A stretch of DNA of 61,037 nt from an uncultured Lachnospiraceae bacterium (lineage in GTDB: Bacteria > Bacillota > Clostridia > Lachnospirales > Lachnospiraceae), in contig CADBZI010000003.1 in assembly GCA_902799015.1 (NCBI GenBank), positions 1-61,037 of the forward strand, written 5' to 3'. A program made the translations under genes and the position numbers. Shown here in pieces: positions 147 to 14,907 of this stretch (its first letter is position 1; every line of letters starts with the position of its first letter). A model generated the notes under the pieces. That model had not been told where the DNA came from. It saw nothing but the letters and a program-made list of their open reading frames with translations, and searched no databases.

Positions 147-1124
147 ATGTCAGATCTGAGTCAGAACAGGAATGAGACAATTCTTACAGCCATAATCCCG
201 GAAGCGCTGGAGCACGAGCGCCTGGATACCGCATTGGGCGTCCTCTTTCCGGAAAGATCCCGTTCTTTCTGGCAAAACCGGATCGAAGAGGGGGATGTTG
301 TAATAGATGGCGTCACCGTGACAAAGGCCGGGCGAAAAGGAAAAGCCGGACAGTCACTGACCGTCCGTGTTCCGGCAGCGCACGCTGCCCGGATTCTTCC
401 GGAGCGGATTCCTCTGGATATTCTGTATGAGGACCAGGATCTGATCGTGATCAATAAGCCAAAGGGGATGGTCGTCCATCCGGCTCCGGGACATGATTCC
501 GGCACTCTGGTGAATGCGTTGATGGAGCACTGCAAGGACTCTCTATCCGGGATCAACGGTGTGATGCGTCCGGGCATTGTGCACCGGATCGACCAGAATA
601 CAACAGGCTCCCTTGTCGCCGCAAAGAATGACAGGGCGCACGAGTGTCTGGCCGCGCAGTTTAAGGAGCACAGCATCACAAGATCCTACCGCGCCATCCT
701 GCATGGGAATCTGCCGGAAGAGGAGATCACCATCGATGCGCCGATTGGCAGGCATCCCAAAGACCGTAAGAAGATGGCGGTTCTGAGTCCCGGCCAGGGG
801 ACCTCGCGCCGTGCGGTCACGCATGTGAAAGTGATCGAGCGTTTCGGGGCCTATACCTATGTGGAATGTGTTCTGGAAACGGGCAGAACCCATCAGATCC
901 GTGTTCATATGGCTCACATCGGTCATCCCGTCCTGGGAGATGAAGTCTATGGCCCGAAACGATGCCCGTTTCACCTGGAGGGCCAGACATTGCATGCAAT
1001 GGTTCTCGGCTTCGTCCATCCTTCCAGACAGGAATACATGGAATTCACGGCTCCGCTTCCTGACTACTTCATACGGCTTTTGGAGCTCCTGCGCCGGAAG
1101 AAGGAGAGTGGGAGCACATCCTGA
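147..1124 (+). CDS. rluD: RluA/RluD-family 23S rRNA pseudouridine synthase
   Basis: A 325-residue protein with an N-terminal S4 RNA-binding domain (about residues 20-80) and a pseudouridine synthase domain (about 90-310). The catalytic block reads HRIDQNTTGSLVAAKN; its Asp aligns with the catalytic aspartate of the family motif HRLDxxTSG, and Ser-to-Thr and Leu-to-Ser changes are visible next to it. GRTHQIRVHMA near the C-terminus is the second family signature. It converts uridines in large-subunit rRNA to pseudouridine. It sits 66 bases after lspA and is probably co-transcribed with it. Its last 56 bases overlap, tail to tail, the end of the ABC permease gene on the other strand. The exact rRNA target cannot be read from sequence. 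Confidence 0.9.
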   Translation: MSDLSQNRNETILTAIIPEALEHERLDTALGVLFPERSRSFWQNRIEEGDVVIDGVTVTKAGRKGKAGQSLTVRVPAAHAARILPERIPLDILYEDQDLIVINKPKGMVVHPAPGHDSGTLVNALMEHCKDSLSGINGVMRPGIVHRIDQNTTGSLVAAKNDRAHECLAAQFKEHSITRSYRAILHGNLPEEEITIDAPIGRHPKDRKKMAVLSPGQGTSRRAVTHVKVIERFGAYTYVECVLETGRTHQIRVHMAHIGHPVLGDEVYGPKRCPFHLEGQTLHAMVLGFVHPSRQEYMEFTAPLPDYFIRLLELLRRKKESGSTS

Positions 1125-2706
1125 TCACGCTCAGATAGCTCAGCAGAGCAAGAACGCTTACCAATGCGATCAGCACAAGTGTCATGAGAACGTGATCCAT
1201 CTTTGTCCCCAGGAATACCACCAGGACAACCAGCCCCATTGTTACAAGCATATTCGGGAGCAGATAGATGGTGACGGCAGATCCCTGCTTGATCACTTCT
1301 ACCTCATTCTCCCAATCCAGACGCATATGCCTGATTCCGCATACACATCCCCATGCGGTCGAGAAGGCACACAATGCGATCCCAAGAATAACATAAAGAA
1401 TCGTATGCAATGCCGGAGTCTTTGCAGAGATACACAGGCACAGAGTCGAGATTACCATGAACGGAACTGTCAGATACAGATTGAACAGCATCTTGCCCTG
1501 GTAGATCGTTTTTTTCTCAATCGGCAGGCTTTGCAGAATCCAGTAATTCTTCCCCTCCAGGGAAGGAGAGCAGGCTGTGGTCGCCATCATTCCGATCAAA
1601 AAGTAAAGCACAAACGGGATTGCAGGCTGAAGCATGAAGACATCAATCGGAGCTCCCTGTGTGACGATTGCGATAATCTTGTCAAAGCCGATCACAAGTG
1701 TGACGATCGAGAGCAGCGCTGCCAGAATCTCCCCCAGCGCCGCATTGGTCATATATACCGTAGATCCGGTCAGCCGCTTGAATTCCTTAAAAGCGATAGC
1801 CTGCTTCACACTGTGCTTCTTTTGCGTGGACATCCGGAACTTTCTCGACGCGGCGTGTGATTTCAGAGCGGAATTGATATTCCTGTAGGACCTTCCGACA
1901 AGGAAAAACACGAGGACAAACAGCACGGTGCTGACGCAGGCCAGAAGCAGGATCCCTGTCATGCTTCCCTTCGTAATCGCATCCGAAAACCATTTTGCAG
2001 GAAAATAGATTCCTGCTGACTGGTCGGAGATGTTCGATATCTTTCCGACAACCTCCTCCACCCGGTCATTTTTGAAGATCCCTTCCAGAATGAAGCGCAG
2101 GCAGAAGCAGAAGATGAGCAAGACGAAGGTAAGAATCGTCTGGATCAAATTGGTTTTTCTGAATCCGGCACTGAACCGCGCGAGTAAAAAGCCCAGGAAC
2201 GCGGACAACAGCATGGGGATCAGCGGAAGGAATACGGAGAGAAGAATCCATACCGGATAGATATAGATCTTCGGCCTGGCATAGTATCCGTATCCGGCCA
2301 TCATGGACAAAGAGATGCTGAGATACCAGGGCAGACTCTTGATATACATGTAAGCAAACTTGCATGCAGCCACAGTATGTGCCTCAAACGGAAGCGACAT
2401 CAGCATATCATATTCCCTGAAGTTGAACAGGTATCCATTTGTCTTGAAAAATGTAAAGAAAAATGCAATCCCACTGATCACCAGCGCACACATCACCGGT
2501 GTGGAGCTGATCAGCCCGTAGGTTCCATATCCCACACACATCGCGATGCAGTACGCCATCAGCATGATGTACAGAAGGCCCGTACCGATCATGCCCCCGA
2601 TGATCTTTCTTTTTTTCTTTTTGTCGGTGCAATACCGATAGATATTTCTCTGACTGGTAGACAGCAATAGCGTCTTCAGCAGGATAATGCCTTTCTTCTT
2701 ATTCAT
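1069..2706 (-). CDS. ABC transporter permease subunit (large ABC-2-like membrane protein)
   Basis: A 545-residue polytopic membrane protein with about a dozen hydrophobic segments, starting with a basic cytoplasmic stretch (DKKKKRK) before the first helix. It has no recognisable soluble domain. Its start overlaps the end of the ATPase gene by 8 bases, so the two form one transcription unit and one exporter. The substrate cannot be inferred. The gene ends inside the 3' end of rluD on the opposite strand, a 56-base convergent overlap. Confidence 0.8.
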   Translation of the reverse strand: MNKKKGIILLKTLLLSTSQRNIYRYCTDKKKKRKIIGGMIGTGLLYIMLMAYCIAMCVGYGTYGLISSTPVMCALVISGIAFFFTFFKTNGYLFNFREYDMLMSLPFEAHTVAACKFAYMYIKSLPWYLSISLSMMAGYGYYARPKIYIYPVWILLSVFLPLIPMLLSAFLGFLLARFSAGFRKTNLIQTILTFVLLIFCFCLRFILEGIFKNDRVEEVVGKISNISDQSAGIYFPAKWFSDAITKGSMTGILLLACVSTVLFVLVFFLVGRSYRNINSALKSHAASRKFRMSTQKKHSVKQAIAFKEFKRLTGSTVYMTNAALGEILAALLSIVTLVIGFDKIIAIVTQGAPIDVFMLQPAIPFVLYFLIGMMATTACSPSLEGKNYWILQSLPIEKKTIYQGKMLFNLYLTVPFMVISTLCLCISAKTPALHTILYVILGIALCAFSTAWGCVCGIRHMRLDWENEVEVIKQGSAVTIYLLPNMLVTMGLVVLVVFLGTKMDHVLMTLVLIALVSVLALLSYLSVIRMCSHSPSSGAGAPKAV

Positions 2707-3424
2707 GATCCGCCTCCAGGAAGGTCTCTTCCAGGGAATGTCCCTCCGTCAGTTCCTGCATGGTCCCGGCTTCGATGATTTTTCCATGCCGGATGATCGC
2801 AACCTTATTGCACAGCTTCTCCGCGACATCCAGTACATGCGTGGAAAAGAAAATCGCCGTTCCCTTCGCACACATTTCATGCATCATCTGTTTAAGAGTG
2901 AAGGTGGCTTTCGGGTCCAACCCGACAAACGGCTCATCGAGCACGAGAAGCTTCGGATCATGAATCAAAGCGGAAATGATCGCCACCTTCTGCTTCATGC
3001 CGTGAGAGTAGGAGCCGATCTGATCGCCCAGAGCGTCCGTGATCTCAAACAGGTCCGCATATTTCCGGATTCGTTCCTCGCGCTGTGCAGCACTGAGATC
3101 AAATACATCCGCCACAAAGTTCAGGTACTGGATTCCCGTCAGATTCTCGTACAGATCCGGATTGTCCGGGATGTAAGCAGTCACCCTCTTGCATGCCAGC
3201 GGTTCGTCCTTCACAGAATGTCCGTCGATGAAGATCTCGCCCTGTGTAAAATCCAGAACACCGACGACAGCACGGATTGTCGTTGACTTTCCTGCTCCAT
3301 TGTGTCCGATAAAGCCATAAATGTCCCCGCTCATAACGCTCAGAGATACATCATCGGCAGCCTTTTTACCGCCGCCGTAGGATTTCGAATAGTGCCTGAT
3401 CTCCAGCATTGCTGTTTCATTCAT
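2699..3424 (-). CDS. ABC transporter ATP-binding protein
   Basis: A 241-residue ATPase partner of the downstream permease. Visible motifs are Walker A (GHNGAGKST), a signature-type stretch SYSHGMKQKVAI, and Walker B (LLVLDEPFVGLDP) followed by the H-loop (STHVLD). This layout is typical of single-nucleotide-domain ABC-2 exporters. I chose the ATG at 3424 rather than the one at 3436 because GGAG lies 6 bases before the former, and the earlier ATG is itself part of that ribosome binding site. A TATAAT-like box and a 19-bp dyad lie upstream (3536-3559). Confidence 0.9.
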   Translation of the reverse strand: MNETAMLEIRHYSKSYGGGKKAADDVSLSVMSGDIYGFIGHNGAGKSTTIRAVVGVLDFTQGEIFIDGHSVKDEPLACKRVTAYIPDNPDLYENLTGIQYLNFVADVFDLSAAQREERIRKYADLFEITDALGDQIGSYSHGMKQKVAIISALIHDPKLLVLDEPFVGLDPKATFTLKQMMHEMCAKGTAIFFSTHVLDVAEKLCNKVAIIRHGKIIEAGTMQELTEGHSLEETFLEADHE

Positions 3425-3535
3425 AGGATTCTCCATTCTGCCGTCTTGCTTTCGGCATTCATTTCTGTTAAAACATATCTCCAGGTTACAGAATCAATGA
3501 CAGGATTGCCCCATCGGCCAATTCCTATCTATTCT

Positions 3536-3559
3536 ATTATATGACAAAGGCCTTGTCAT
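3536..3559 (-). promoter_or_regulatory. Candidate promoter/operator of the ABC exporter operon
   Basis: On the minus strand a perfect TATAAT (plus 3536-3541) is preceded by a dyad with 7-bp arms, ATGACAA and TTGTCAT, separated by 5 bases (plus 3541-3559). No good -35 box is found at 17 bp, which suggests either regulator-assisted transcription or that the dyad is a weak terminator stem of the preceding small gene. The regulator is unknown; the ribbon-helix-helix gene next to it is one candidate. Confidence 0.4.
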
Positions 3560-3563
3560 CCCC

Positions 3564-3761
3564 TTAAGAAATGTCGAAGACGGGAGCCTCATCCAGATGC
3601 TCTGAAACGTACTTTCCGTTCTTTTTTCTCTGACGGACACACTCTGTCAGCAGATACTCGATCTGCCCGTTCACCGAGCGGAAGTCGTCCTCTGCCCACG
3701 CTGCGATCGCATCATAAAGCTTCTCACTGAGCCTCAGCGGAATCTGTTTCTTTGCTGCCAT
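3564..3761 (-). CDS. Small ribbon-helix-helix (Arc/CopG-like) protein
   Basis: A 65-residue protein starting [19 protein letters not shown]. The pattern of a short beta strand with alternating residues (QIPLRLS) followed by two helices fits the ribbon-helix-helix fold of Arc-type DNA-binding proteins, with a variable charged tail. It starts after an AGGTAGGAAA ribosome binding site. It follows the SPFH gene by 115 bases on the same strand. It may be a transcriptional regulator, or an accessory factor of the SPFH protein. The call rests on pattern only. Confidence 0.6.
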
Positions 3762-3876
3762 ATTTTCCTACCTGTTCTCTATAAAAATGATATGTTTTCT
3801 TTTCTCAGCCTCTTATCAGGTGTTTATCGCTCCTGCCTTTGGGAAGGCAGCAGGAGAGGAGTGGTCCGGTCGTGCC

Positions 3877-4884
3877 TCAGTACAAGGATCCGGAATTAAT
3901 CACCGGCTGCGTGTCGTGATTGCCGCACAGAACCACAAGAAGATTGGAAACCATGGCTGCCTTCCGCTCATCATCCAGATCAACAATCTCCTCCGAGCTC
4001 AGTTTATCGAGTGCCATCTGCACCATGCCGACCGCACCATCGACAATCATCTTCCTCGCGTCAATGACTGCGGAAGCCTGCTGCCTCTGGAGCATGACTG
4101 CGGCAATCTCAGGCGCGTACGCAAGGTAGGTAATCCTGGCATCGAGAATCTCGAGGCCGGCCTGGCGGACCTTGCTTTGAATCTCCTCGCGGATTCTTCC
4201 AGCAACAACTTCCGTAGAGCCGCGCAAAGATCCGTCATCCGCCTGCCCGTCACCGGTCGTATCCACATTCGGTGCGATGTCATACGGGTAGATCTTGACG
4301 ATGTTCCTCACAGCAGTATCACACTGCAAAGAGAGATATTCCTTATAATTGTCAACCGTAAACACAGCCTTGGCTGTGTCAACAACCTTCCACATGACGG
4401 CAACTCCGATCTCGACCGGATTGCCGAGAACATCATTCACCTTCTGCCTGGAATTATTCAGTGTCATAATCTTCAGAGAAATAACATTGCTTGTAAATGC
4501 AGGTTCCTGCTGATTGCTTGAGATCAGGCTGACAAGCGACTTGCTCTTGGCGCCTCCGTCCACATCGCCGCTTTGGCCGAGACGGGTTTTCTTCGCAGGG
4601 TTCACGCTGACCGAAAATGGATTAATCGCATAAAACCCGGGCCCTTTGAGCGTTCCCTTATAATCGCCGAACAGGGTAACAACAAGCGCTTCCTCCGGCT
4701 TCAGAACACGAAGGCCGAGCAGCGGAATCCACGCCACACACATGACAACAAGCGCGATTACCATGATTGCAAGATTCACAGCAATCCCATAGATGAATGC
4801 GACTATGGCGAGCAGTTCCAGCAAAATGCATCCAAGCAGAACCAGCATACCGTTCTTTCTGGTTGACAGAATCTTTTCTTCCAT
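3877..4884 (-). CDS. SPFH/Band 7 domain membrane protein
   Basis: A 335-residue protein with two closely spaced N-terminal hydrophobic segments (about residues 10-60), then a band-7 domain beginning at EALVVTLFGDYKGTLKGPGFY, and a later helical part with AYAPEIAAVMLQRQQASAVIDARK, typical of flotillin/stomatin/HflK relatives. Such proteins oligomerise as ring-like membrane scaffolds and often work with proteases or lipid microdomains; the precise role here is unknown. I chose ATG 4884 over an in-frame start at 4998 because AGAAAGGGG lies at correct spacing and the longer N-terminus is not conserved-looking. Confidence 0.85.
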   Translation of the reverse strand: MEEKILSTRKNGMLVLLGCILLELLAIVAFIYGIAVNLAIMVIALVVMCVAWIPLLGLRVLKPEEALVVTLFGDYKGTLKGPGFYAINPFSVSVNPAKKTRLGQSGDVDGGAKSKSLVSLISSNQQEPAFTSNVISLKIMTLNNSRQKVNDVLGNPVEIGVAVMWKVVDTAKAVFTVDNYKEYLSLQCDTAVRNIVKIYPYDIAPNVDTTGDGQADDGSLRGSTEVVAGRIREEIQSKVRQAGLEILDARITYLAYAPEIAAVMLQRQQASAVIDARKMIVDGAVGMVQMALDKLSSEEIVDLDDERKAAMVSNLLVVLCGNHDTQPVINSGSLY

Positions 4885-5041
4885 GACAAACCCCTTTCTT
4901 TTAAGCCATATATTCTGCTTACATATCGTTCTCTCACTGAAAAGCAAACACAACATCAAGCAGATCAGCAAGTCATTGTGATATCTTTTTGATATCATAT
5001 TATATCAGGGCTGTCAATACATCCTTTCAATAAAACAGCAA

Positions 5042-5073
5042 AAGCTGAGTCATCCGGCGTAGTGACTCAGCTT
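5042..5073 (-). terminator. Intrinsic terminator after the tyrosine recombinase
   Basis: Perfect 11-bp arms, AAGCTGAGTCA and TGACTCAGCTT, with a 9- to 10-base loop, followed on the minus strand by TTTGCTGTTTTATT. The position, 80 bases beyond the recombinase stop, fits termination of that gene. Confidence 0.75.
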
Positions 5074-5152
5074 ATCTATGGATTCCTTTTTTCATTGGCG
5101 TGCCGCCGTCAGACTTGCTGCGGTTGCAGTGTGCAGAAGGTGCAGACCAGGC

Positions 5153-6226
5153 TCAGTCCTCACGCAGCCTTACCGCTCTGGCTGCACTGCGCCTGCGCTG
5201 GTCATCCATTGCCGCATAGTGCTTCTTCGTTGTGTTGACGTCCTTATGCCCGAGTACATCGGCAACAAGATAGATATCGCCGGTTTCCCTGTACAGCGCG
5301 GTGCCATAGGTACTGCGCAGCTTATGAGGCGTAATTTTCTTGCTTGTCGTGACCATCCTGGAATACTTTTTCACCATATTCTCAACGGCCTGAACGCCCA
5401 TGCGCTTCCTCTGGGTGGAATAGAAGAGAGCGCGCTCATGGCCGGGAAGCGGCGTAATCGTCTCTCTGACCTCAAGATAGTCCAAAAGAGCTTTCTCCAC
5501 CTCATCTCCGAAGTAGACAACTGATTCGGAGCCACCTTTGCGTATAATGTGTATTCCATTGTTCCTGAAATCCACATCATCAACGTCCAGACCGACACAT
5601 TCACTGACACGGATCCCGGTTCCCAGAAGCAGCGTCACAATCGCCAGGTCACGAAGTTTTGTCTTTTCGTAATACAGTTTCTTCTGACCACTCAGCTGAT
5701 CCCCACCATGTTCAATCAGATCCAGCAAAGCGGCTGTTTCCCCTTCATCCATACGGACAATCGTATGTTCGTGCAATTTGGGCATGTCAACCAGAAGCGT
5801 CGGATTGGTCCGGATCATTTCACGTTTATAATAGAACGCGTAAAAGCTCCGAAGCGCCGACATCTTGCGCTTCAGGCCGAATTCATTGTTTGTAAAGGAA
5901 TTCTCCCTTGGAGCGCCCAGAAGAGACTCATTCACCTTGTAGACGCTCAGGAACGATTTATACTCATCAATATCCGTCGCGGTCAGATCATCCAGAACAG
6001 AGACATCCCACGTGCGGATATCACGATCCCGCAGGACAGGATTGTTCTCCTGAAGATACCGGAAAAACGTCCGGATATCGTACGCGTAAGAAAGACGCGT
6101 CCGTGACTCCTTGGACGCCTCCTGAGCCAGAAAATACTGTTTGGCAAACGGAGGAAAATCCTTCAGGATCTCACGGAGCTGAAGAATATTCTGTGTGTCA
6201 CGTTCACTGTGATAAGAGTCAGCCAT
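5153..6226 (-). CDS. Tyrosine recombinase/integrase (XerC/D-like)
   Basis: A 357-residue recombinase with an N-terminal SAM-like core-binding domain (about residues 15-140) and a catalytic domain. All catalytic residues are present: Arg206 (GTGIRVSE), Lys230 (RKGGSES), His301 and Arg304 (TPHKLRST), His327 (LGHKDV) and the nucleophile Tyr337 (KKHYAAMD). I chose the ATG at 6226, 6 bases after GGAGG; an upstream ATG at 6238 is inside that ribosome binding site. There are no phage or transposition genes nearby. The upstream region holds repeated 15-bp arms (6266-6523). It could be a chromosome-dimer resolvase relative, an orphan integrase, or an inversion recombinase. It is longer than typical XerC/D proteins (about 300). 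Confidence 0.9.
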   Translation of the reverse strand: MADSYHSERDTQNILQLREILKDFPPFAKQYFLAQEASKESRTRLSYAYDIRTFFRYLQENNPVLRDRDIRTWDVSVLDDLTATDIDEYKSFLSVYKVNESLLGAPRENSFTNNEFGLKRKMSALRSFYAFYYKREMIRTNPTLLVDMPKLHEHTIVRMDEGETAALLDLIEHGGDQLSGQKKLYYEKTKLRDLAIVTLLLGTGIRVSECVGLDVDDVDFRNNGIHIIRKGGSESVVYFGDEVEKALLDYLEVRETITPLPGHERALFYSTQRKRMGVQAVENMVKKYSRMVTTSKKITPHKLRSTYGTALYRETGDIYLVADVLGHKDVNTTKKHYAAMDDQRRRSAARAVRLRED

Positions 6227-6265
6227 AGAAACCTCCATAAAACGACAAGATAGAACTTCAGGAAA

Positions 6266-6316
6266 GGCAATCTATTACAAAAACCTCGACCATGTTTTTT
6301 CAATAGATCTCCAGGA
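6266..6316. repeat. 51-bp direct repeat, copy 1, containing a recombinase-site-like dyad
   Basis: It is identical to 6410-6460 except for one base (T at 6300, C at 6444). It contains a 39-bp dyad at 6270-6308: 15-bp arms of the form ATCTATTnnAAAAAC in inverted orientation around the 9-base spacer CTCGACCAT. The arm-spacer-arm architecture is what tyrosine recombinase core sites look like, though a 9-base spacer is slightly longer than usual. Confidence 0.8.
6274..6303 (-). promoter_or_regulatory. Candidate promoter of the recombinase, inside repeat unit 1
   Basis: On the minus strand TTGAAA (plus 6298-6303) and TGTAAT (plus 6274-6279) are 18 bp apart. Both boxes fall in the two arms of the first 39-bp dyad, so anything binding or recombining the dyad would affect transcription of the recombinase. 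The second dyad carries a matching pair TTGGAA-18-TGTAAT. Confidence 0.5.
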
Positions 6317-6360
6317 TAACTGCGATAGACATAAATCCTCAGGGAGATCTGACAGGAGAG

Positions 6361-6375
6361 GTTTTTTGAATAGAT
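6361..6375. repeat. Solitary inverted 15-bp arm between the two 51-bp repeats
   Basis: The reverse complement reads ATCTATTCAAAAAAC, matching the arm consensus ATCTATTnnAAAAAC. No partner arm is recognisable at the 9-base spacing. With the left arm of copy 1 it forms a long imperfect hairpin (arms near 6265-6290 and 6355-6380). Confidence 0.65.
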
Positions 6376-6409
6376 TGCCTGCAGAATCTCAGCATTAAAA
6401 ATATGTAAC

Positions 6410-6460
6410 GGCAATCTATTACAAAAACCTCGACCATGTTTTTCCAATAGATCTCCAGGA
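6410..6460. repeat. 51-bp direct repeat, copy 2
   Basis: It lies exactly 144 bp after copy 1, in the same orientation, with 50 of 51 bases identical. Its core dyad is 6414-6452 with the same CTCGACCAT spacer. The sequence after each copy is also related (ACATAAAT then GGGAGATCT or GGGGAGATCT), so a unit of about 144 bp appears to have been tandemly duplicated. Confidence 0.8.
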
Positions 6461-6489
6461 AAGTTACAAGTACATAAATTCCCGGGGAG

Positions 6490-6523
6490 ATCTATTGGAA
6501 AAACATGTGTTTTCTGTATAGAT
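6490..6523. repeat. Related dyad with a 4-base loop
   Basis: Arms ATCTATTGGAAAAAC and GTTTTCTGTATAGAT flank ATGT. They belong to the same arm family as the 51-bp repeats, but the spacer is 4 rather than 9 bases, so it may be a degenerate site or an RNA hairpin. Confidence 0.65.
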
Positions 6524-6600
6524 GTATATTGGTATCTTACTGCACTTTTCCGGAGGAATCAAGCTTTTTCAGTGCGTGGTTCCTGATTCACATGAAACAC

Positions 6601-6666
6601 AATAACACCCGGGAGGATAAACATAAGCAGAATAACACCCGGGAGGCAATTCCTTCCGGGTGTTTT
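6601..6666. terminator. Terminator hairpin with a duplicated left arm, after the DUF1002 gene
   Basis: The 16-base string AATAACACCCGGGAGG occurs at 6601-6616 and again at 6631-6646. The second copy pairs with CCTTCCGGGTGT (6652-6663), giving a stem of about 11 bp; TTTTC follows on plus, and TATTCT follows on minus. It lies between the stop of the minus-strand DUF1002 gene and the recombinase upstream region. The rest of 6524-6600 shows nothing recognisable. Confidence 0.6.
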
Positions 6667-6723
6667 CTTATGCTGTCATTCAGTTACTGATCATATTATG
6701 GCGGAATCAAGTCATCCGCTTTA

Positions 6724-8994
6724 TCAGCTGAAATAAATGGTATACTGTGCGGTGCCTGTCGCAGCTGCCGGGTCAACGGATACGCCGTCCTCCGGTGCAG
6801 CGGAATAATAGGTGATGGTCAGTGTCACCGGGCCGCTCTGAACCGGTGTGACTGTGACGACATCGCCTGCTCCGGCACTCACGCCGTAAGGAGCAGATCC
6901 GTCTGCTGCGGTGATCGCTACGCTTGCCATGCTCTGTCCGTCCGCAGTTACGGTTGCAAAAGTACTCATCCCGTCAGAGGGGAACAGAACACTTCCGGTG
7001 ATTCCTTCTGTATAGGACTTATTCAGGCAGGAGCCGTTTACGCTGAAGCCTTTCTCACTCACGCCGTTTCCATTGTACGGATCATAGTTGTTGATCTGGA
7101 TATCCAGCATCTGGTCTCCCATGGAGAACTGGGCGCTGAGCGTATAGGTATAGGATTCCCCTGCGACCGGAACATAGTCTGTCATAAGGCTGATATCATA
7201 AACATCCTTCGGTACCATGAGAATCTTCGTGGATCCGGCCGGAACATCCGGGGAATCCTGGCTGGTAAGAAGAACCAGATCCTGCGCGGAAGGATCGATG
7301 TTGAAAAGTGCCGCATCCGCTCCGCTGGAAGACGTTACATGAAGCGCTCCGCTGACAGGAGTCAGATTCTCATACGGAACAACCACCTCGACCGGAGAGA
7401 CACCGGATGCGGGCTGACTGCCGTTCTCTGCATTGCTGCATACCCGGAAGGAAACGGTTCCGTTGAAGACATCATCTGCTGTGATTGAAACCGCATTCTG
7501 CGTATCCGCCACTGCCGCATCATCTGTGGGGTTCTCCACGTTCCCGTCCGTTACCTCGCCCGGGTTCTCTTCCATTCCATCACCAAAAAGATCGTCCGGG
7601 TTCTCATCAGGAGTATCAACTGTTCCATCTGCAAAAGGATCTATTGTATTCGCATCCGGATTCTCTACCGTATCTGCCGGAATTTCATTCGCAGGATCCG
7701 TGCTCTGTGCGGTATTCTGATCCGTGGTGTCGTCTCCGCCGATCGAGGCGAAATCTGTCGGTTCCGGAATTCCGGTATCATTCGTTACGTTCTGGTCTGC
7801 AGGAGCCTGCTGTTCCTGCTGTTCCTGCTGCTGCTGTTCAATCTTCTCATCCAGATCCGTCGATACCGAGAGATCAATCGTCGTCTGAGCTGTTGAAGAA
7901 GTAATCACAGAGCCATCCGAGGATGTTTCCGCCAGGGCACTTTCATCAGTCGTATTCAGAATGCTGTCCTGAGACAGAGCCTGATCTGCCGCGGAAAGAG
8001 CCTGCTGGTCCTGAGAGGCTGTGTCAGTCGGTGCAGCTGCCGGTTCCTCAGTCGGTGCGGCTGCCGGCTCCGCGGTTGGTGCAGCATTCTGCTCAATCTG
8101 CGTCGTGCTGGCTGTACTTGGCGTCTGTGTCTGTCCTTCCAGAGTCTTCTGAATCTGAGCAAGCGCATCCAGCGTATTGCTGTCATAGGTCTGCTGGGAA
8201 ATGCTCACGGCAAGTTCCATCAGGGAGGCAACCTCAGCCTCTGTCAGGCCGTTATTGTTTGTAATATTCGTGGTGTTATTCGTTGTCGTATTCGTGGTAT
8301 TGTTCGTGGTATTGTTCGTTGTGTAATTGTTCACAACGTCATTGACAATCTTGGTAATCTCTTCATAAGAGATCGAATTGTCCTCCTCGAGCGTTCCGTT
8401 GATCACCTGCATCTTGACATCATTGACAATCTGCTGAGCTTCCTGCTGTCCGATTGTCTGTCCAAGCTCATAGGTGGTTGCGAACTCCTGCACCGCTGCT
8501 TCCTTCTTCGCGGGTTCCAATGTGACACCGGAAAGATTCTCATAAGCCATCAAAGCGCCTGTCAGAGCACCTGTGCCGGAGACCTGGAACGGAGCCGCCG
8601 CCAGTACTTCACAGTTCGTGACGCCTGCGGTTGCAAGGTTGGAAGCGATCATATTCGAAGTGACATAGGTCAGATTCGCGGTTTTGACCTGAATACCGCC
8701 GGAAGTCATCGGTCTGATCAGTGCGCAGCTGATCGTCTTGTATCCGACAATATCACGGCTCATGTAGCCGCCGAGATGTCTCCACTCATCATCATTCGTA
8801 ACAGTAATCGTTGTGTAGCTCTGCCCCGCCACATTAAAATAGCGAAGTATCATATTCTTCTGCTCTTCCGTCAGATCCGCGCCGACGGTAACAACCATCA
8901 TGGAATCCGCCATTGCGGTCATGGGAATGGCAAATCCCATGGCTGACAGAATCAGGACTGCGCTGAGCAGTATGCCAAACACCCTTTTTTTCAT
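6724..8994 (-). CDS. Secreted DUF1002 (YpuA-like) protein with long low-complexity and C-terminal extension
   Basis: A 756-residue exported protein. Residues 1-29 are a signal peptide (hydrophobic core GILLSAVLILSAMGFAI, cleavage near TAMA). Residues about 30-275 match the DUF1002 family (YpuA of Bacillus), usually a protein of about 300 residues. An Asn/Thr run occupies 222-249, interrupting the C-terminal part of that domain. Residues about 280-500 are Ala/Pro/Thr-, Gln- and Asp/Glu-rich, including a Gln-rich run near 387-397. The last 250 residues look like beta-rich extracellular domains. No sortase motif is seen. The function of DUF1002 is unknown. The start follows AGGAGGAAAG, and the gene has its own promoter. 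Confidence 0.8.
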   Translation of the reverse strand: MKKRVFGILLSAVLILSAMGFAIPMTAMADSMMVVTVGADLTEEQKNMILRYFNVAGQSYTTITVTNDDEWRHLGGYMSRDIVGYKTISCALIRPMTSGGIQVKTANLTYVTSNMIASNLATAGVTNCEVLAAAPFQVSGTGALTGALMAYENLSGVTLEPAKKEAAVQEFATTYELGQTIGQQEAQQIVNDVKMQVINGTLEEDNSISYEEITKIVNDVVNNYTTNNTTNNTTNTTTNNTTNITNNNGLTEAEVASLMELAVSISQQTYDSNTLDALAQIQKTLEGQTQTPSTASTTQIEQNAAPTAEPAAAPTEEPAAAPTDTASQDQQALSAADQALSQDSILNTTDESALAETSSDGSVITSSTAQTTIDLSVSTDLDEKIEQQQQEQQEQQAPADQNVTNDTGIPEPTDFASIGGDDTTDQNTAQSTDPANEIPADTVENPDANTIDPFADGTVDTPDENPDDLFGDGMEENPGEVTDGNVENPTDDAAVADTQNAVSITADDVFNGTVSFRVCSNAENGSQPASGVSPVEVVVPYENLTPVSGALHVTSSSGADAALFNIDPSAQDLVLLTSQDSPDVPAGSTKILMVPKDVYDISLMTDYVPVAGESYTYTLSAQFSMGDQMLDIQINNYDPYNGNGVSEKGFSVNGSCLNKSYTEGITGSVLFPSDGMSTFATVTADGQSMASVAITAADGSAPYGVSAGAGDVVTVTPVQSGPVTLTITYYSAAPEDGVSVDPAAATGTAQYTIYFS

Positions 8995-9056
8995 AATGCT
9001 TTCCTCCTATTGTAGATAGAATCCTCAAACGACGGTGATTGCACTTCGTTTTCTGT

Positions 9057-9085
9057 ATTATAACAATTTCAACACACGAAAACAA
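9057..9085 (-). promoter_or_regulatory. Promoter of the DUF1002 gene
   Basis: On the minus strand TTGTTT (plus 9080-9085) and TATAAT (plus 9057-9062) are 17 bp apart. The transcript would begin about 55 bases before the ATG. Confidence 0.65.
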
Positions 9086-9163
9086 TTCTGCAAACACGCT
9101 GCTTTTCTGTAGTGTTTCCTAAAAAAATCTTTCGTTCTGCCGGGAAAAAACCAAAGAAGGTTC

Positions 9164-9177
9164 CGAACAGATTTTCG
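9164..9177. promoter_or_regulatory. SOS box (LexA operator) before lexA
   Basis: CGAACAGATTTTCG differs from the Gram-positive consensus CGAACnnnnGTTCG at one position. A second, weaker palindrome, CGAAACATGTGTTTG, overlaps its end at 9176-9190 and reaches the -35 box. This arrangement fits negative autoregulation. Confidence 0.7.
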
Positions 9178-9187
9178 AAACATGTGT

Positions 9188-9216
9188 TTGCATCCTGCAA
9201 AAAGCTGTGTTATACT
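9188..9216 (+). promoter_or_regulatory. Promoter of lexA
   Basis: TTGCAT (9188-9193) and TATACT (9211-9216) are separated by 17 bp. The -35 box overlaps the second operator-like palindrome. Confidence 0.7.
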
Positions 9217-9280
9217 CGTACAAAAGGATGCATCACATCACGATGCGCATCGGATCCTGTCAGAAAGGTGGGTTATTTTC

Positions 9281-9901
9281 ATGGCATATGGAAAGATATC
9301 AAAAAAGCAGAAAGAGATTCTGGAATTTATCAAGAGCGAGATCCTGAACCGGGGATATCCTCCGGCCGTCCGGGAGATCTGTGAGGCTGTCAACCTGAAG
9401 TCCACCTCCTCTGTTCACTCTCATCTTGAGACGCTGGAAAAGAACGGTTATATCCGGAGAGATCCGACGAAGCCGCGCGCGATCGAGATCATCGATGATC
9501 AGTTCCAGCTTACGCGCCGTGAGATGGTGAATGTTCCGATTGTGGGAACCGTAGCTGCAGGGCAGCCGATTCTCGCAGAGGAAAACATCGAAAACTACTT
9601 TCCCGTTCCTGCCGAATACATGCCTGCCAATCAGTCCTTCTTCCTGAAGGTGAAGGGAGAAAGCATGATCCGTGCCGGTATCAATCCCGGAGATCTGGTT
9701 CTGGTGGAGCAGAAAAAAGATGTCCATAACGGGGATATCGTCGTCGCGCTGATTGAGGATTCCGCAACCGTTAAGACCTTCTATAAGGAGAAGGGACATA
9801 TCCGCCTTCAGCCGGAGAACGAGACCATGGATCCGATTATTGTCGACAAGAATCTGGAGGTTCTCGGTAAAGTGTTCGGGGTATTCCGTTTTATGCGTTG
9901 A
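9281..9901 (+). CDS. lexA: LexA repressor, SOS regulator
   Basis: A 206-residue repressor. Residues 1-65 form the winged helix DNA-binding domain, and 85-206 the S24 autoprotease domain. The self-cleavage site is Ala93-Gly94 (VAAGQP), the nucleophile Ser128 (GESMI) and the general base Lys165 (TVKTFY). RecA filaments trigger cleavage after DNA damage. ATG 9281 is used because AGAAAGGTGGG is properly placed; an upstream in-frame ATG at 9182 would lie inside the promoter. An SOS box lies just upstream. Confidence 0.97.
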
Positions 9902-9925
9902 TCATATTTATGTTTATATGATAAT

Positions 9926-9960
9926 AAAGCAGGAGGGGCTTAATCATCCCCTCCTGCTTT
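9926..9960. terminator. Bidirectional terminator between lexA and sseB
   Basis: Perfect 13-bp arms AAAGCAGGAGGGG and CCCCTCCTGCTTT with a 9-base loop. The minus strand continues TTTATTATCATAT, a good U-rich tract for the sseB operon; the plus strand continues TTTGGTTTACC for lexA. Confidence 0.85.
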
Positions 9961-10005
9961 GGTTTACCTATTCTTCAGATGGCAGGATATCCCTGACAGC
10001 ATGCG

Positions 10006-10938
10006 TTATCTTGACTTCGGATCCGGCATCTTCGTGACCTTATCCCGTACGGGAGCGGCCGGTGCCTTTCTCATCTGCGGTCCTGCCAGGGACATTGCCA
10101 GCTTTGCCGCCGCTTCACTGCCCTGCTTTACGGCATCCGGGAAGATCTCCATAATCTTGTCCAGCAACGGTATCTGCAGCGCAATCTGGCATCCGGCCGG
10201 ATTCAGAAGATATCCCTTTTCTCCGCTTGTAAGCGCGCCTTTCAGTCCTGCGAACGGCATCGTTATCACCTGGAACTGCTTCTTCTGCTGCTGAAGGAAT
10301 CTCTGAAGCTCCATATTGTCGGCAAAGAGCGGACGATACCGGTCTCCGTTTTTCATGGTCAGCTCCACATACGCGAATTCCTTCTTCTGCATCTTCTCCG
10401 CGACAGATCCCGCACCGCTTTTCACCTGAACCGGGATCAGGAACCGGGAGCGTGCAAGGTTCACAAAGAATTCCTCCTGCAGATCATTCAGATCTTCCTT
10501 CTCCTGTACCGGAACCTGCCTGGAAACCTCCTGCATCATATAGATGCCCGTAAGCATCAGCTGAGGATTCTCAAGCGGTCTGAGCGCTTCCGGAATATTT
10601 GACATATCCTTGAAGGTGACAAACTGGTCGATCGGAATCGGACAGCTGGCACCATTCTGCGTAAACACAATCTCCGTAACGCCGATATGAAGCAGCGATC
10701 CGAAAAAGCCGGTGAACTGTTCCTTCTTGATCTGTACTCCCTGGAGCAGTATCTTTTTTCCGGCAAACCGCTCTCTGAATTCCTTCAGCCCCTCCTCGTC
10801 TGCAAAGACCCAGACCTGATCCGCATAGCTGACCGGATCACAGTACAAAAAAGGCATTCTGGTCGATGCACAGAAGCAGGCAAGAAATGAATCTCTCTGT
10901 AATACTTTTTTAATCAGAAACTTGTTATCTACAGCCAT
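10006..10938 (-). CDS. SseB-family protein
   Basis: A 310-residue soluble protein with the pattern of the SseB (enhanced serine sensitivity) N-terminal domain twice in weak form. The C-terminal half contains PLFADNMELQRFLQQ and KGYLLNPAGCQIALQIPLLDKI, the latter resembling the family block GxxINPxGxxxxL. The biochemical role of the family is not established. It starts 5 bases after the rsfS stop and is the last gene of the yhbY-nadD-yqeK-rsfS-sseB operon. Confidence 0.65.
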   Translation of the reverse strand: MAVDNKFLIKKVLQRDSFLACFCASTRMPFLYCDPVSYADQVWVFADEEGLKEFRERFAGKKILLQGVQIKKEQFTGFFGSLLHIGVTEIVFTQNGASCPIPIDQFVTFKDMSNIPEALRPLENPQLMLTGIYMMQEVSRQVPVQEKEDLNDLQEEFFVNLARSRFLIPVQVKSGAGSVAEKMQKKEFAYVELTMKNGDRYRPLFADNMELQRFLQQQKKQFQVITMPFAGLKGALTSGEKGYLLNPAGCQIALQIPLLDKIMEIFPDAVKQGSEAAAKLAMSLAGPQMRKAPAAPVRDKVTKMPDPKSR

Positions 10939-10943
10939 GATTG

Positions 10944-11312
10944 TTATTTTCCTTCCTCGATATCCTCAATAGAGACCGCTTTTCCGTCTCTCCAGATCCT
11001 TTCCAGATCGTAGAACAGTCTGTTCTGCGTATCAAAAATATGGATGACAAGATCGCCGTAATCCAGGAGGATCCAGTTCGCATTCTGGTATCCTTCCTTG
11101 TGCTTGATCTCAAATCCTGCGCGTCCCAGTACCTCGTCCACTTCATCCGCCATTGCCTGAATCTGGTTCCGGTTGCTGCCGGACGCAATGATGAAGTAAT
11201 CCGCGAGCGTACTGATCTGCTCAATATCAATCATCGTGATATTCTCAGCCTTCTTATTCTCCAGCGCATGGTATGCAAGGCTCGCCATCTCTCTGGATCT
11301 GTTATACGTCAT
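10944..11312 (-). CDS. rsfS: Ribosomal silencing factor RsfS
   Basis: A 122-residue protein of the Iojap/RsfS family, with the characteristic TLADYFIIASGSNRNQIQAMADEV and GYQNANWILLDYGDLVIHIF regions. It binds ribosomal protein uL14 and blocks subunit joining under starvation. I place the start at 11312: GGGAGGAG lies 8 bases upstream, and an earlier ATG at 11330 is part of that site. The ribosome binding site is contributed by a dispersed repeat (see 11321-11461). It lies in a conserved neighbourhood with nadD and yqeK. Confidence 0.93.
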   Translation of the reverse strand: MTYNRSREMASLAYHALENKKAENITMIDIEQISTLADYFIIASGSNRNQIQAMADEVDEVLGRAGFEIKHKEGYQNANWILLDYGDLVIHIFDTQNRLFYDLERIWRDGKAVSIEDIEEGK

Positions 11313-11320
11313 ATCGCACT

Positions 11321-11461
11321 CTCCTCCCATAACGAAGTTCTGTTAATTGACTTACTATGTACGGATGCCGATTTTGTAATCTCGTTTACTTCGTCTTTCA
11401 GACTCGAAACCGAGAACAAAATCTGGCTCCTCCCATAACGAAGTTCTGTTAGTTGACTTAG
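11321..11461. repeat. Dispersed intergenic repeat, locus 1 (1.3 tandem copies)
   Basis: The block beginning CTCCTCCCATAACGAAGTTC occurs at 11321 and again at 11431, in the same direction. The interval between them (about 110 bp) contains GTACGGATGCCGATTTTGTA and CTTTCAGACTCGAAACCGAG, both also found, slightly changed, at 51245-51409. Read on minus it could encode a short repeated peptide (EEPDFVLGFESERRSKRDYK), but no independent gene is evident. It occupies the whole gap between yqeK and rsfS. Confidence 0.85.
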
Positions 11462-11464
11462 TTT

Positions 11465-12076
11465 TTATGAAGTCAGTGAATGTCCTTTGTCCTCTGTCTC
11501 GAAAAACAGATTATGGTAATACCGGAACGCGCTGCGGCTCATCGGATCGATCTCTCCCTGACCGGAATCCAGATAATGCAGCGTATCCTCTAGAATTCTG
11601 CAAACGGTAAGATTCAGGTCGTGAAAGGCCAGCTTCCTGACCTCGGGAAGATTCTCCGCCTTGCAGCGTGCGGGTTCAATATAATCCGCAGTGAAAATAA
11701 TCTTCTCCATCGTTGTCATGTTCGGGCGTCCCGTGGTATGCCACTGGATTGCGCTCAGAATCTCCGGATCCTTGATGCCGTACTTTTCTTCCGCCAGGCA
11801 GGCGCCCAATTTGGAATGCAGCAGATATGGTGCATCCAGCTCCACCTTCGTGATCTCAAGCCCTCTTTCTTTGCACATCCGTATCTTTTTATCATTCGGA
11901 ATACACTTCGCGCAGTCATGCAAAAGGCCTGCCACCTGCGCTTTTTCAATGTCCGCTCCGTATCTCATCGCGAGGGCAGCAGCTGTAAACATTACGCCGA
12001 GCGTATGCTGATACCGTGCAGCATCCAGCTCTTTCCTGACTTTTTTCTGAAGTTTTATCAGATTATATTCCGCCAT
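11465..12076 (-). CDS. yqeK: HD-domain hydrolase YqeK (symmetrical Ap4A hydrolase)
   Basis: A 203-residue HD phosphohydrolase. The metal ligands are visible in H-TLGV, LLHDCAK (HD pair), LLHSKLGA, QWHTTG and TADYIEP. Members of this family hydrolyse diadenosine tetraphosphate to two ADP in Gram-positive bacteria. It overlaps nadD by 14 bases, as in many Firmicutes, and starts after AAGGATATCT. Confidence 0.92.
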   Translation of the reverse strand: MAEYNLIKLQKKVRKELDAARYQHTLGVMFTAAALAMRYGADIEKAQVAGLLHDCAKCIPNDKKIRMCKERGLEITKVELDAPYLLHSKLGACLAEEKYGIKDPEILSAIQWHTTGRPNMTTMEKIIFTADYIEPARCKAENLPEVRKLAFHDLNLTVCRILEDTLHYLDSGQGEIDPMSRSAFRYYHNLFFETEDKGHSLTS

Positions 12077-12686
12077 AGATATCCTTATCCAGAATGTACG
12101 TTAATACCTCATCAGGAAGATAATACCGGGTACTCCACCCCTCTGACAGCCATTCCCGTATGTTATGCGAAGAGATATCCAGATTCGGACTCTCCAGTTT
12201 TCTCACATCCGCACTGTATCTGATTCTTACGTGCTCAATCGCTCTTTCCAGATCGTCCGGATCCATGCTGTCTCTTACCGCGACAGTAAGAATACACTGT
12301 CTGCAGATCTCCTCAGGACCATTCCAGCTGTCGAAAGCCAGCAGGGAATCCGCCCCCATAATAAAATAGTAGTCTGTATCCGGATGATTCTCCCGCAGTC
12401 TGCGCAGCGTCTCTTTTGTATAGATATAGCCCTGCTCATGCATCTCCTCCAGGGAGAGTTCAAAATGAGGGTTCGATGCGATCGCCAGACGTACCATATC
12501 CACCCTCTGCTGATTGGTGGCGCCGTCCCTGTTTCGCTTATGTGGAGGATTGCCGGATGGCATGAACAGCACCTTTTCCAGGGAAAATTGCTGCCATGCG
12601 CTCTCTGCCAGAATCAGGTGGCCGATATGGATCGGATCAAACGTACCTCCCATGATCCCAACGGCATGTCGCATGGGATTCTTCAT
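12063..12686 (-). CDS. nadD: Nicotinate-nucleotide adenylyltransferase
   Basis: A 207-residue nucleotidyltransferase. The phosphate-binding motif GGTFDPIHIGH is at residues 13-23, and the second signature ISSHNIREW, of the SxxxxR type, is near the C-terminus. It adenylates nicotinate mononucleotide in NAD synthesis. Its ATG overlaps the stop of yhbY in an ATGA arrangement, indicating translational coupling. Confidence 0.96.
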   Translation of the reverse strand: MKNPMRHAVGIMGGTFDPIHIGHLILAESAWQQFSLEKVLFMPSGNPPHKRNRDGATNQQRVDMVRLAIASNPHFELSLEEMHEQGYIYTKETLRRLRENHPDTDYYFIMGADSLLAFDSWNGPEEICRQCILTVAVRDSMDPDDLERAIEHVRIRYSADVRKLESPNLDISSHNIREWLSEGWSTRYYLPDEVLTYILDKDIYGGI

Positions 12687-13000
12687 CTTAAGGACCTGTC
12701 CGGCCTGACGGAAGGCAGAATAATCTTCTTTTTTTCCTCACTGCCCTCACGATAGAGTACAAACTTTCTTCCGATCACCTGTACCAGCTCAGAGCGCGTG
12801 CGTTCCGCTGCAGTCTCCGCAATCTGGTGAAGATCATCAAGGCAGTTTTTCCCGATCCCGATCTTGACTAATTCACGGGCAGTGAGCGCTTCCTCAATCG
12901 ATGCCGTATTCTCAGGAGTAATCCCTTCCTTCCCGATCTGAAGGATTGTGTCTTCCTTCGAAGCAAGGCTTTTGAGAAATGCTCTTTGTTTACTGGTCAT
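12683..13000 (-). CDS. yhbY: YhbY/CRM-domain RNA-binding protein
   Basis: A 105-residue protein consisting of one CRM domain: MTSKQRAFLKSLA at the N-terminus, IGKEGITPENTASIEEAL, and the GxxG-like VIGRKFVLYR. Members associate with pre-50S particles. The start at 13000 follows GCGGAGGATATT; a longer in-frame start at 13087 has no support. It is first in the yhbY-nadD-yqeK-rsfS-sseB operon. The C-terminal tail (EKKKIILPSVRPDRSLR) is not part of the domain. Confidence 0.92.
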   Translation of the reverse strand: MTSKQRAFLKSLASKEDTILQIGKEGITPENTASIEEALTARELVKIGIGKNCLDDLHQIAETAAERTRSELVQVIGRKFVLYREGSEEKKKIILPSVRPDRSLR

Positions 13001-13089
13001 AATATCCTCCGCTTTCTGAACCCGGCACCCGGCCTGTAGTCCGAAAGAATTCGCTACATGTTCAATCATTCTCTCCGAGAATAGCACAG

Positions 13090-14907
13090 TTATTGAAAAT
13101 ACGCAATCTGCAACTGAATGCCGGATATCCCCCGGAAGTCATTTATGACAGGGCGGTATGCCAAAGTGAGCCGGATGTCCGTCTCCAGGCCCATCTTAAG
13201 AGCCGCCACCTTCTGTTTTCCAAACTTCTCCTCCAGAGTAAGCAGAAATGCATCTGCATCCCCAAACCACACCGCTGTCATCTTGCAGCTTCCGTCCTCC
13301 ACCAGCATCCTGATACAGTTCCGGTTCTTTCCCACTACGCTCAGCCTGAGGACACGAACCTTGCTGCATCCAAGCAGCGGAGCTCTCATTCCGGATCCGA
13401 ACGGCTCGAGCTGTTCCAATTCCCTGACCAGTGATTCCCTGAGATAGGCAAAGGGAGGCACTGCATCCAGAAGAACTTTCTGGGTAAGGTCCTCCTGCGT
13501 CAAGGAGCAGTTCTCATTCAGCCTTTTTTGAAGCGGCTCAAAGGACGATCTTGGAATCGTCAGTCCGGCTGCCATCGGATGTCCCCCGAACCGCACAAAC
13601 AGATCTGACACCTTGGACAGCTCATCATGCATATTATAGGCTTCTATGGATCTGCCGCTGCCCTTCAGGTGATCCGGATTCTCCGTATCCGTGAATACAA
13701 TCACCGGCTGGTGGAGGGTTTCTTTTATTTTCGACGCAATGATTCCCGCAACAGATTCATGCGTTTCTTCCAGATAGAGAACCAGAACCCTGTCCCGTGC
13801 ATCAGAAGCCTGCGCAATCTTCTCAAATGCGCATGCCAGTCCCTCTTCGGTCATCTCTTTGCGCCGCTCATTCAATAGATACAGACTTCTGGAAGCGGCA
13901 TCCGCTTCCTCAGGATCCGTCTCCAGAAGAAGGCTGACAGCACGGGAAGCAGTATCCAGTCTTCCGGAAGCATTCAGACATGGCCCGATGGAAAATGCGA
14001 TATGGCCTGCTGTAAGCTTTTTTCCCTCCAGATTGCAATTGCGGATCAATGCGCGCATGCCGATATTCTCGGTCTCCGGAAGCAGCTTCAGGCCATATTT
14101 GACAAGAATTCTGTTTTCACCGGTCAGCTTCATCAGATCCGTAACCGTTGCCGCCGCGGCAAAAGGAAGATTCGCCATGGTCATCGGGCAGGAGGAAACC
14201 GGAGGCAGATTATCCTTGTCATCTGCCCCGGCTCTCATATATCTGCATTCATACAGATACATCAGTTTCCAGGCGACCGAGGCACCGCACAGATTCTTGT
14301 TCGGATACCTGCATCCCGGCTTTTTCGGATCGACGATGACATCCGCTTCCGGCAGCAGATACTCCTTTTCACCTGACAGAAGAATCCGGAAATTCGGCTC
14401 ATGATGATCTGTGAGAATCACCGTCATGCCAAGCTGCTTCGCGCAGGAGATCTCCGCATTCTGGGCGATTCCATTGTCGCATGTGATGATCGTGTTGATT
14501 CCGTCGTGATGCGCTTTTTCGACCAGCCGCATGCTCATGCCGAAGCCGTCCGCAAACCGGTCCGGAATGTCGTAGCTTACATCCGCTCCGGCCTGGCGCA
14601 GGGAAGCATACAGGATATACACGGAAAGAATTCCATCCGCGTCATAATCCCCGATAATGCGGATTTTCCTGTTCTGAAGAATGCATTCATGAAGCAGACG
14701 CGCAGCCTCCTCCAGCTGATCCATTGAGCGGGGATCCTCCAGATCCTCCAGTGTTCCATGCAGGAACTTTCTGATCTGATCCTCATCCCGAAGTCCTCTG
14801 TTCAGAAGAACCCTTGCAGTGATGGGGTCAACTCCGAATCGCTCCGCAATCTGTCTGTCTCCCCCTACCATCATCTGTTTCCAATTTTGCTGCGGCCAAA
14901 GCGGCAT
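13090..14907 (-). CDS. recJ: Single-stranded-DNA-specific exonuclease RecJ
   Basis: A 605-residue DHH-family nuclease. Motif I is GDYDADG, the DHH motif is LTDHHEP, and the DHHA1 motif GGHPMAAG is in the C-terminal half; an OB-like region follows. It degrades single-stranded DNA 5' to 3' in recombination and mismatch repair. The start follows AGGAGGG. Only 29 bases separate the secDF terminator from the start codon, so transcription must come from readthrough or a promoter overlapping that hairpin. yhbY begins 89 bases beyond its stop. Confidence 0.95.
   Translation of the reverse strand: MPLWPQQNWKQMMVGGDRQIAERFGVDPITARVLLNRGLRDEDQIRKFLHGTLEDLEDPRSMDQLEEAARLLHECILQNRKIRIIGDYDADGILSVYILYASLRQAGADVSYDIPDRFADGFGMSMRLVEKAHHDGINTIITCDNGIAQNAEISCAKQLGMTVILTDHHEPNFRILLSGEKEYLLPEADVIVDPKKPGCRYPNKNLCGASVAWKLMYLYECRYMRAGADDKDNLPPVSSCPMTMANLPFAAAATVTDLMKLTGENRILVKYGLKLLPETENIGMRALIRNCNLEGKKLTAGHIAFSIGPCLNASGRLDTASRAVSLLLETDPEEADAASRSLYLLNERRKEMTEEGLACAFEKIAQASDARDRVLVLYLEETHESVAGIIASKIKETLHQPVIVFTDTENPDHLKGSGRSIEAYNMHDELSKVSDLFVRFGGHPMAAGLTIPRSSFEPLQKRLNENCSLTQEDLTQKVLLDAVPPFAYLRESLVRELEQLEPFGSGMRAPLLGCSKVRVLRLSVVGKNRNCIRMLVEDGSCKMTAVWFGDADAFLLTLEEKFGKQKVAALKMGLETDIRLTLAYRPVINDFRGISGIQLQIAYFQ

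Follow-up and report, generated by a model that had tools for sequence, protein, structure and literature searches.

A probable single-recombinase Xer/dif module with an array of extra arms in an uncultured Lachnospiraceae bacterium

We analysed a stretch of 61,037 nucleotides from an uncultured Lachnospiraceae bacterium, here called the window, and found that positions 5153-6523 very probably form a single-recombinase Xer/dif module for the resolution of chromosome dimers. The assignment is drawn from sequence comparison. The module is best read as the Lachnospiraceae counterpart of XerS/difSL and XerH/difH and as a system of the same kind. By its sequence, the version in the window is set apart from this core Xer/dif kind by an array of extra arms. 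Two recombinase protomers would bind both arms of the dif-like site (6490-6523). When sister-chromosome recombination yields a dimer, its two dif sites would be brought together at the septum. Probably under the control of FtsK, the strands would then be exchanged over the 6-bp dif centre, and two monomers would result. The recombinase seated on dif would also repress its own gene.

The recombinase is a single tyrosine recombinase of the XerS/XerH type, 361 aa long and encoded on the reverse strand (5153-6238); the site, promoter and array described below lie on the same strand. Its best NCBIfam model was XerS (199.6 bits), followed by XerA (165.7), XerC (158.8) and XerD (145.2), and its Pfam domain match was Phage_integrase. 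The XerS score is below the cut-off of the curated equivalog NF003462 (267 bits), and the XerC and XerD scores fall far under their curated cut-offs (335.15 and 329.6 bits). Judged in this way, the recombinase resembles XerS in length and profile, yet it is not XerS by the curated threshold. Its sequence matches in the PDB were XerA (6.7e-23), XerD (2.8e-20) and, weakly, XerH (6.3e-9). The first-pass annotation had credited the protein with a complete catalytic set. All six residues (R210, K234, H305, R308, H331 and Y341) are indeed present, and they are invariant in 81 of 81 aligned proteins, which are the window recombinase and those of 80 related loci. These loci (L013-L092) are the best 80 of 391 stretches from a scan of genome contigs, with 64-93% identity, and are mostly labelled Lachnospiraceae.

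The same annotation had called the recombinase an orphan, which does not fit its distribution. A XerS-model match at E<=1e-30 was found in 144 of 150 genomes sampled from the family of the window, at a permissive cut-off that B. subtilis and C. glutamicum pass too. The model reached 180 bits in one stretch in 74 of the 150; the remaining genomes mostly had frames of about 336-428 aa that scored 133-167 bits. The curated XerS cut-off (267 bits) was passed by none of the 150 family genomes and none of 196 class genomes, and the class-wide scan gave matches at 1e-38 in 54 of the 196. XerD was patchy in the family. It was found in 91 of the 150 genomes at 1e-50 and exceeded its cut-off in 53, so the family as a whole cannot be described as having a single recombinase. 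At 1e-50, XerD was absent from the genome of the window (2.64 Mb in 168 contigs, 85% complete) and from G055 of the same genus (98% complete). The best other XerD-model match in the former reached 144 bits and belongs to a row of three adjacent tyrosine recombinase genes outside the window (G000:C2:5709-8447; XerD-model E 1.9e-17, 4.2e-15 and 4.3e-42), which looks like a recombinase-trio mobile element. Full XerD genes over the cut-off were seen at G085:C1:1352831 and G150:C2:3038471, and both genomes also carry a dif module at the terminus.

Upstream of the gene, the annotation had reported seven 15-bp arms, and we recovered all of them, at 6270, 6294, 6361, 6414, 6438, 6490 and 6509. Six are exact copies of ATCTATTnnAAAAAC and the arm at 6509 has two mismatches to it. 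We also recovered the two 39-bp dyads, whose 9-base spacers (6285-6293 and 6429-6437) are identical, the direct repeat at 144 bp (54 bp, 96%) and a third dyad, in which 4 bases (6505-6508) separate the arms. The arms are non-random: the six exact ATCTATTnnAAAAAC matches in the whole genome all lie inside the array. When one mismatch was allowed, the genome gave two further matches, against three for the reversed control.

The 9-base-spacer dyads had been taken for the recombination core, and here the comparison gave a different result. The conserved core is the 4-base-spacer dyad, which measures 14-6-14 (34 bp, 6490-6523), with the left arm at 6510-6523, the centre at 6504-6509 and the right arm at 6490-6503. 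Of the 80 loci, 78 have at least 60 bases upstream, and in 72 of these the site, ATCTATACnnnAAAC nnnn GTTTTTCAAATAGAT or a variant with at most 4 mismatches among 23 fixed positions, lies no more than 1 kb before the recombinase. It was missing within 1 kb in L025, L037 (with only 93 bases upstream), L061, L065, L067 and L068. No second copy was found in the 694,139 bases of the 72 site-bearing loci, nor did the site turn up in 20 shuffled loci. Relatives commonly have GTTTTTCAAATAGAT as the right arm, and the window has its own variant, GTTTTTCCAATAGAT. The four central bases differ by lineage (ACAT in 53 of the 72 loci; others include GCGA, CATA, CCGA, CCAG and CTCG) while the arms are kept, and this is what is expected where recombination takes place. 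In 5 of the 72 loci the site points the opposite way to the gene. The recombinase very probably acts at this inverted-arm site before its own gene, as had been suggested.

When the 34-bp site was searched in the 150 family genomes with at most 3 mismatches, it was found once per genome in 15 of them, the genome of the window included, and the control gave no match. Site and recombinase share a contig in 14 of these 15. The exception is G010, where a perfect dif-like site and the recombinase are on different contigs (C2:11641 and C24:21618), being either unlinked or separated by an assembly break. In G069 the site is 3-4 kb from the recombinase. More distant relatives were covered by 57 further regions (28-80% protein identity, 600 bases upstream searched). 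A generalised 14-6-14 site scoring at least 18 of 22 was present in 32 of these regions, or in 29 of 51 genomes after duplicates were removed, and in none of 285 shuffles; it was not found in the other 25 regions within the 600 bases. Both arms of the generalised site covary, as in AACTATTCG/CGAATAGTT and ATCAGTTCG/CGAACTGAT. With 1200 bases upstream searched, the site was found in 15 of 21 regions, and 1 of 420 shuffles reached a score of 18. In G036 and G048 it is about 800 bases upstream, beyond the reach of the 600-base search. A B. subtilis-type dif pattern gave one weak match with 3 mismatches in 16 genomes and two in the reversed control. Since this is no better than the control, no evident B. 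subtilis-type partner site is seen for the XerD that co-occurs in some genomes.

Sequence comparison of the relatives places the conserved site at the GC-skew break of the replication terminus. In G085, a 3,589,629-bp contig with dnaA at base 22, the site is at 1,716,337. Measured in 2-kb bins, its skew runs at about +0.1 to +0.2 ahead of the site, is about zero at 1.716-1.720 Mb, turns mildly negative past the site and reaches -0.13 by 1.80 Mb. In G150 the site is at 354,543 of 3,297,096 and dnaA at 2,177,610; the skew falls from about +0.14 to about zero at 353-355 kb and is -0.15 at the next sample (516 kb). G151 is the same as L013, the closest relative of the window (93% identity). Its site is at 126,931 of a 308-kb contig, and the cumulative skew of this contig has its maximum in the 120-130 kb bin, which holds the site.

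Mean skew changed from positive upstream to negative on the gene side in 15 of 21 regions (22 were fetched and G020, cut at a contig end, was excluded). The sign changed in 12 of the 15 regions with a site of at least 18 within 1.2 kb; in the others, G055 (genus of the window), G034 and G053, the skew goes from about zero to negative. Among the six regions without the site, three change sign (G147, G114 and G051, with scores of 16-17). The clearest regions without a flip, G109, G123 and G148, have the three poorest best site matches (13-15 of 22). In 8 of 28 genomes dnaA is on the same contig as the recombinase or site, and in six of these (G150, G036, G085, G026, G070 and G117) the two are 0.447-0.492 of the chromosome apart. 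The distance was off in G149 (0.34) and in G051 (about 0.18, a broken assembly), and both show the skew change. The contig of the window shows no sign change around the recombinase, with only about 5 kb of contig on the gene side. Since every matching genome has just one copy of the site, and this copy falls at the skew break in relatives, it points to dimer resolution rather than to switching or to the remote targets that had been proposed for the enzyme.

The probable promoter of the recombinase is at 6534-6562 and immediately precedes the third dyad. It consists of a -35 box TTGATT (6557-6562) and a -10 box TAAGAT (6534-6539) at 17-bp spacing, from which transcription would begin at dif or shortly ahead of it. 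In the window this pair is weak (8 of 12 hexamer bases). We scanned the 50 bases upstream of the site in the 66 loci with the site in gene orientation and found a strong pair (10-12 of 12) at about the same place in 42 of them, compared with 1.4% of shuffles. The strong pair was missing in 24 of the 66 loci and in 4 of 5 reversed sites. The -10 box in the relatives usually stops about 10-15 bases ahead of dif. This means that dif covers the start of the transcript, and the bound recombinase would then repress its own gene. Self-repression had been suggested before and is made plausible by this arrangement; going by promoter position, it probably operates, though not universally among the loci. 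The promoter assigned earlier by eye (6274-6303, TTGAAA-18-TGTAAT) is off this conserved place, and it may be a secondary promoter. Short inverted repeats, AACACCCGGGAGG / CCTTCCGGGTGTT, were also seen at 6604-6664, between the promoter and the upstream gene for a DUF1002 protein, and are possibly a terminator.

The leader between promoter/dif and the start codon (6265-6507) holds the extra arms and two long hairpins. In hairpin H1 (6486-6507 with 6435-6456), arm A2 (6438-6452) is the partner of the right arm of dif. Arm B2 (6414-6428) forms a 15-9-15 dyad with A2 and pairs with arm A3 (6361-6375) in hairpin H2 (6410-6431 with 6358-6379). A second 15-9-15 dyad (6270-6308, arms 6294-6308 and 6270-6284) repeats the A2-B2 dyad in tandem at a distance of 144 bp. 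The order is dif, 37-40 bases, A2, 8-9 bases, B2, 37-38 bases and A3. Such an array, with exact right-type arms, was found in 5 of 19 genomes of the genus: that of the window, L013, L014, L015 and G170. Just eight of these 19 genomes are clean with a completeness of 90% or more, and three of those without any arm are 68-72% complete, which makes the absence less than firm there. Among 28 loci scanned, extra arms occurred in just L013, L014 and L015. The arms had been expected before the genes of orthologous recombinases. This stood for one dyad, which is kept across most relatives, but not for the extra arms.

A second array unit is present in the window, L015 and G170, and a single unit in L013 and L014. 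The units are 96.6% identical within L015, 90% within G170 and 85% within the window, and 73-76% identical between species. We read the additional half-sites of the leader as a tandem amplification specific to this lineage. The 15-9-15 dyads are not normal partners for dif. If measured like dif they are 14-11-14, and an argument from helical phase against them as cores is a weak point, because difSL is reported to have an 11-bp central region.

Both hairpins vary in a way that keeps the pairing. In five of five species, 21 of the 22 pairs of H1 are preserved, and five positions show compensatory changes. For H2 the corresponding figures are 17 of 24 pairs, again in all five, and three positions with compensatory changes; one position within its arm never pairs. 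This covariation rests on five related species, and hairpin-templated correction or tandem duplication could yield part of it. The predicted RNA fold of 6233-6510 is -97.4 kcal/mol (z = -7.3), and none of 200 shuffles was as good. The 13 core bases of A2, B2 and A3 are 100, 94 and 100% identical over the five species, and the loops are 57 and 66% identical. Since pairing alone would not preserve the letters of the arms, binding by a recombinase is the natural reading, and from this conservation we think that it is probably the same recombinase that binds the extra arms.

The array may serve as an accessory or regulatory complex, may regulate dif or the mRNA by folding, or may be neutral. For the last, the extra arms would be debris of tandem duplications and of palindromes corrected by template switching, with no function. 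The restriction of the array to 5 of 19 genomes fits this, as does the greater likeness of units within species than between them, and hairpin-templated repair gives compensatory changes without selection. The near-identity of the arm cores next to much looser loops speaks against it, and we regard neutrality as possible but rather doubtful. More tentative still, and in our view unlikely, is the idea that the extra half-sites and the two covarying hairpins form a nucleoprotein or folded structure which times recombination or expression at dif. Such a structure might act as a topological filter, in the manner of the accessory motifs of TnpI. It could also sequester the right dif arm by extrusion or RNA folding, which is conceivable because in H1 A2 pairs with exactly this arm and with half of the dif centre. 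If the idea were true, this would be, to our knowledge, the first chromosomal dimer-resolution site with self-encoded accessory sites.

Other readings concern the module as a whole. The recombinase could be a self-switching element that deletes or inverts the 144-bp unit and so toggles its own expression. The two dyads do share an identical spacer and lie in direct orientation 144 bp apart, and the number of units varies between one and two by species. However, species-specific tandem duplication accounts for these numbers equally well, and the conserved promoter, being upstream of the unit, would survive its deletion. The array was not found in 14 of the 19 genus genomes (the three of 68-72% completeness among them), which means that the gene does not need it. 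We consider such switching highly improbable; with a single site at the skew break and an array in so few genomes, the switchable self-expression proposed by the annotation is left unsupported.

The site would be very unlikely to serve only as an operator for autorepression, with XerC/XerD resolving dimers at another dif. Its tight spacing to the promoter in 42 of 66 loci would suit an operator, and XerD over the cut-off in 53 of the 150 family genomes would supply the other system. An operator, however, need not occupy the GC-skew break, vary in its centre with the arms kept, be reversed or lie 3-4 kb away. Moreover, the genome of the window and G055 are without XerD at 1e-50, and the B. subtilis-type dif pattern was matched less often than its reversed control. 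It is barely credible that the recombinase is part of a phage or mobile element that has integrated here, with the arms as its attachment site. Core-type sites do adjoin this tyrosine recombinase and dif sites are usable by mobile elements, but the enzyme is near-universal in the family and its chromosomal place is conserved. A relative of rluD follows it in 56 of 80 loci and lexA is on the opposite side in 34 of 80 (the loci being of limited length), and no mobile-element genes were seen among the ORFs of 1-16 kb in the window, as the annotation had also noted. The dimer-resolution module is the reading that we carry forward.

Among known systems, XerS/difSL of streptococci and lactococci likewise has a single recombinase of about 356 aa and an atypical dif adjoining its gene (PMC5357621). 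XerS is also the nearest NCBIfam model of the window recombinase, although the latter stays under the XerS cut-off. In the same source difSL has 31 bp with an 11-bp central region, whereas the core site here has a 6-bp centre; it is the extra dyads that measure 11 bp between 14-bp arms. Unlike in XerS/difSL, XerD coexists in part of the Lachnospiraceae. XerH of Helicobacter and Campylobacter is a single recombinase of 353-363 aa whose difH is often gene-linked, and the 6-bp central region and terminus location are shared with our site (PMC2731167 and PMC5241119). The stretch TTTTCAAA of the difH consensus also occurs in the common right arm of the relatives, but not in that of the window. The arms otherwise differ, and the PDB match to XerH is weak.

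The module shares with XerCD/dif a terminus site, inverted arms, a 6-8-bp centre and the enzyme superfamily, but here one recombinase acts at a gene-linked site, and the XerC and XerD scores are far below the cut-offs. In the TnpI/IRS system of Tn4430 the recombinase itself binds extra motifs beside the core site during resolution of transposon cointegrates. Its likeness to the array is in architecture only and is a possible parallel, since here the site is a chromosomal dif and not part of a transposon. Further context comes from three papers: dif sites have been predicted in Firmicutes with XerCD (PMC3025954), Legionella has a single-recombinase system with a non-adjacent site (PMC9765430), and XerS and XerH have been placed in the Xer subgroup (PMC8138268).

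In the papers cited here, gene-linked single-recombinase Xer/dif modules are reported only for streptococci and lactococci and for Helicobacter, Campylobacter and their kin. Our literature search, with subscription journals mostly outside its scope, gave no such module in Lachnospiraceae among the matches listed. The results point to a further lineage of these modules in a major gut family. The defined 34-bp site is directly testable, can serve as a terminus marker, is a candidate target for dif-using mobile elements and offers a short portable recombination tool. In the lineage of the window, dif has gained hairpins and additional half-sites for the recombinase, a change that is relevant to the regulation of Xer reactions.

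The neighbours of the recombinase in the window include LexA, the DUF1002 protein and a Band_7 protein, all with family matches, as well as ABC transporter genes and an rluD-like gene judged from the ORF list alone. The order lexA, DUF1002, recombinase, rluD was found in 21 of 80 loci, and the window has this order with an added ABC/Band_7 block. Between the window (242-14850) and L013 (G151:C1:119876-134365), the recombinase-dif-DUF1002 and ABC/Band_7 blocks are rearranged around dif. L013 is the odd one in gene order because the order of the window recurs in the 21 loci. In 28 of 80 loci the recombinase has a DUF1002 relative on its upstream side. In the window (6724-8994) this protein has 756 aa, of which only residues 38-246 are the DUF1002 domain, and the remainder looks low-complexity.
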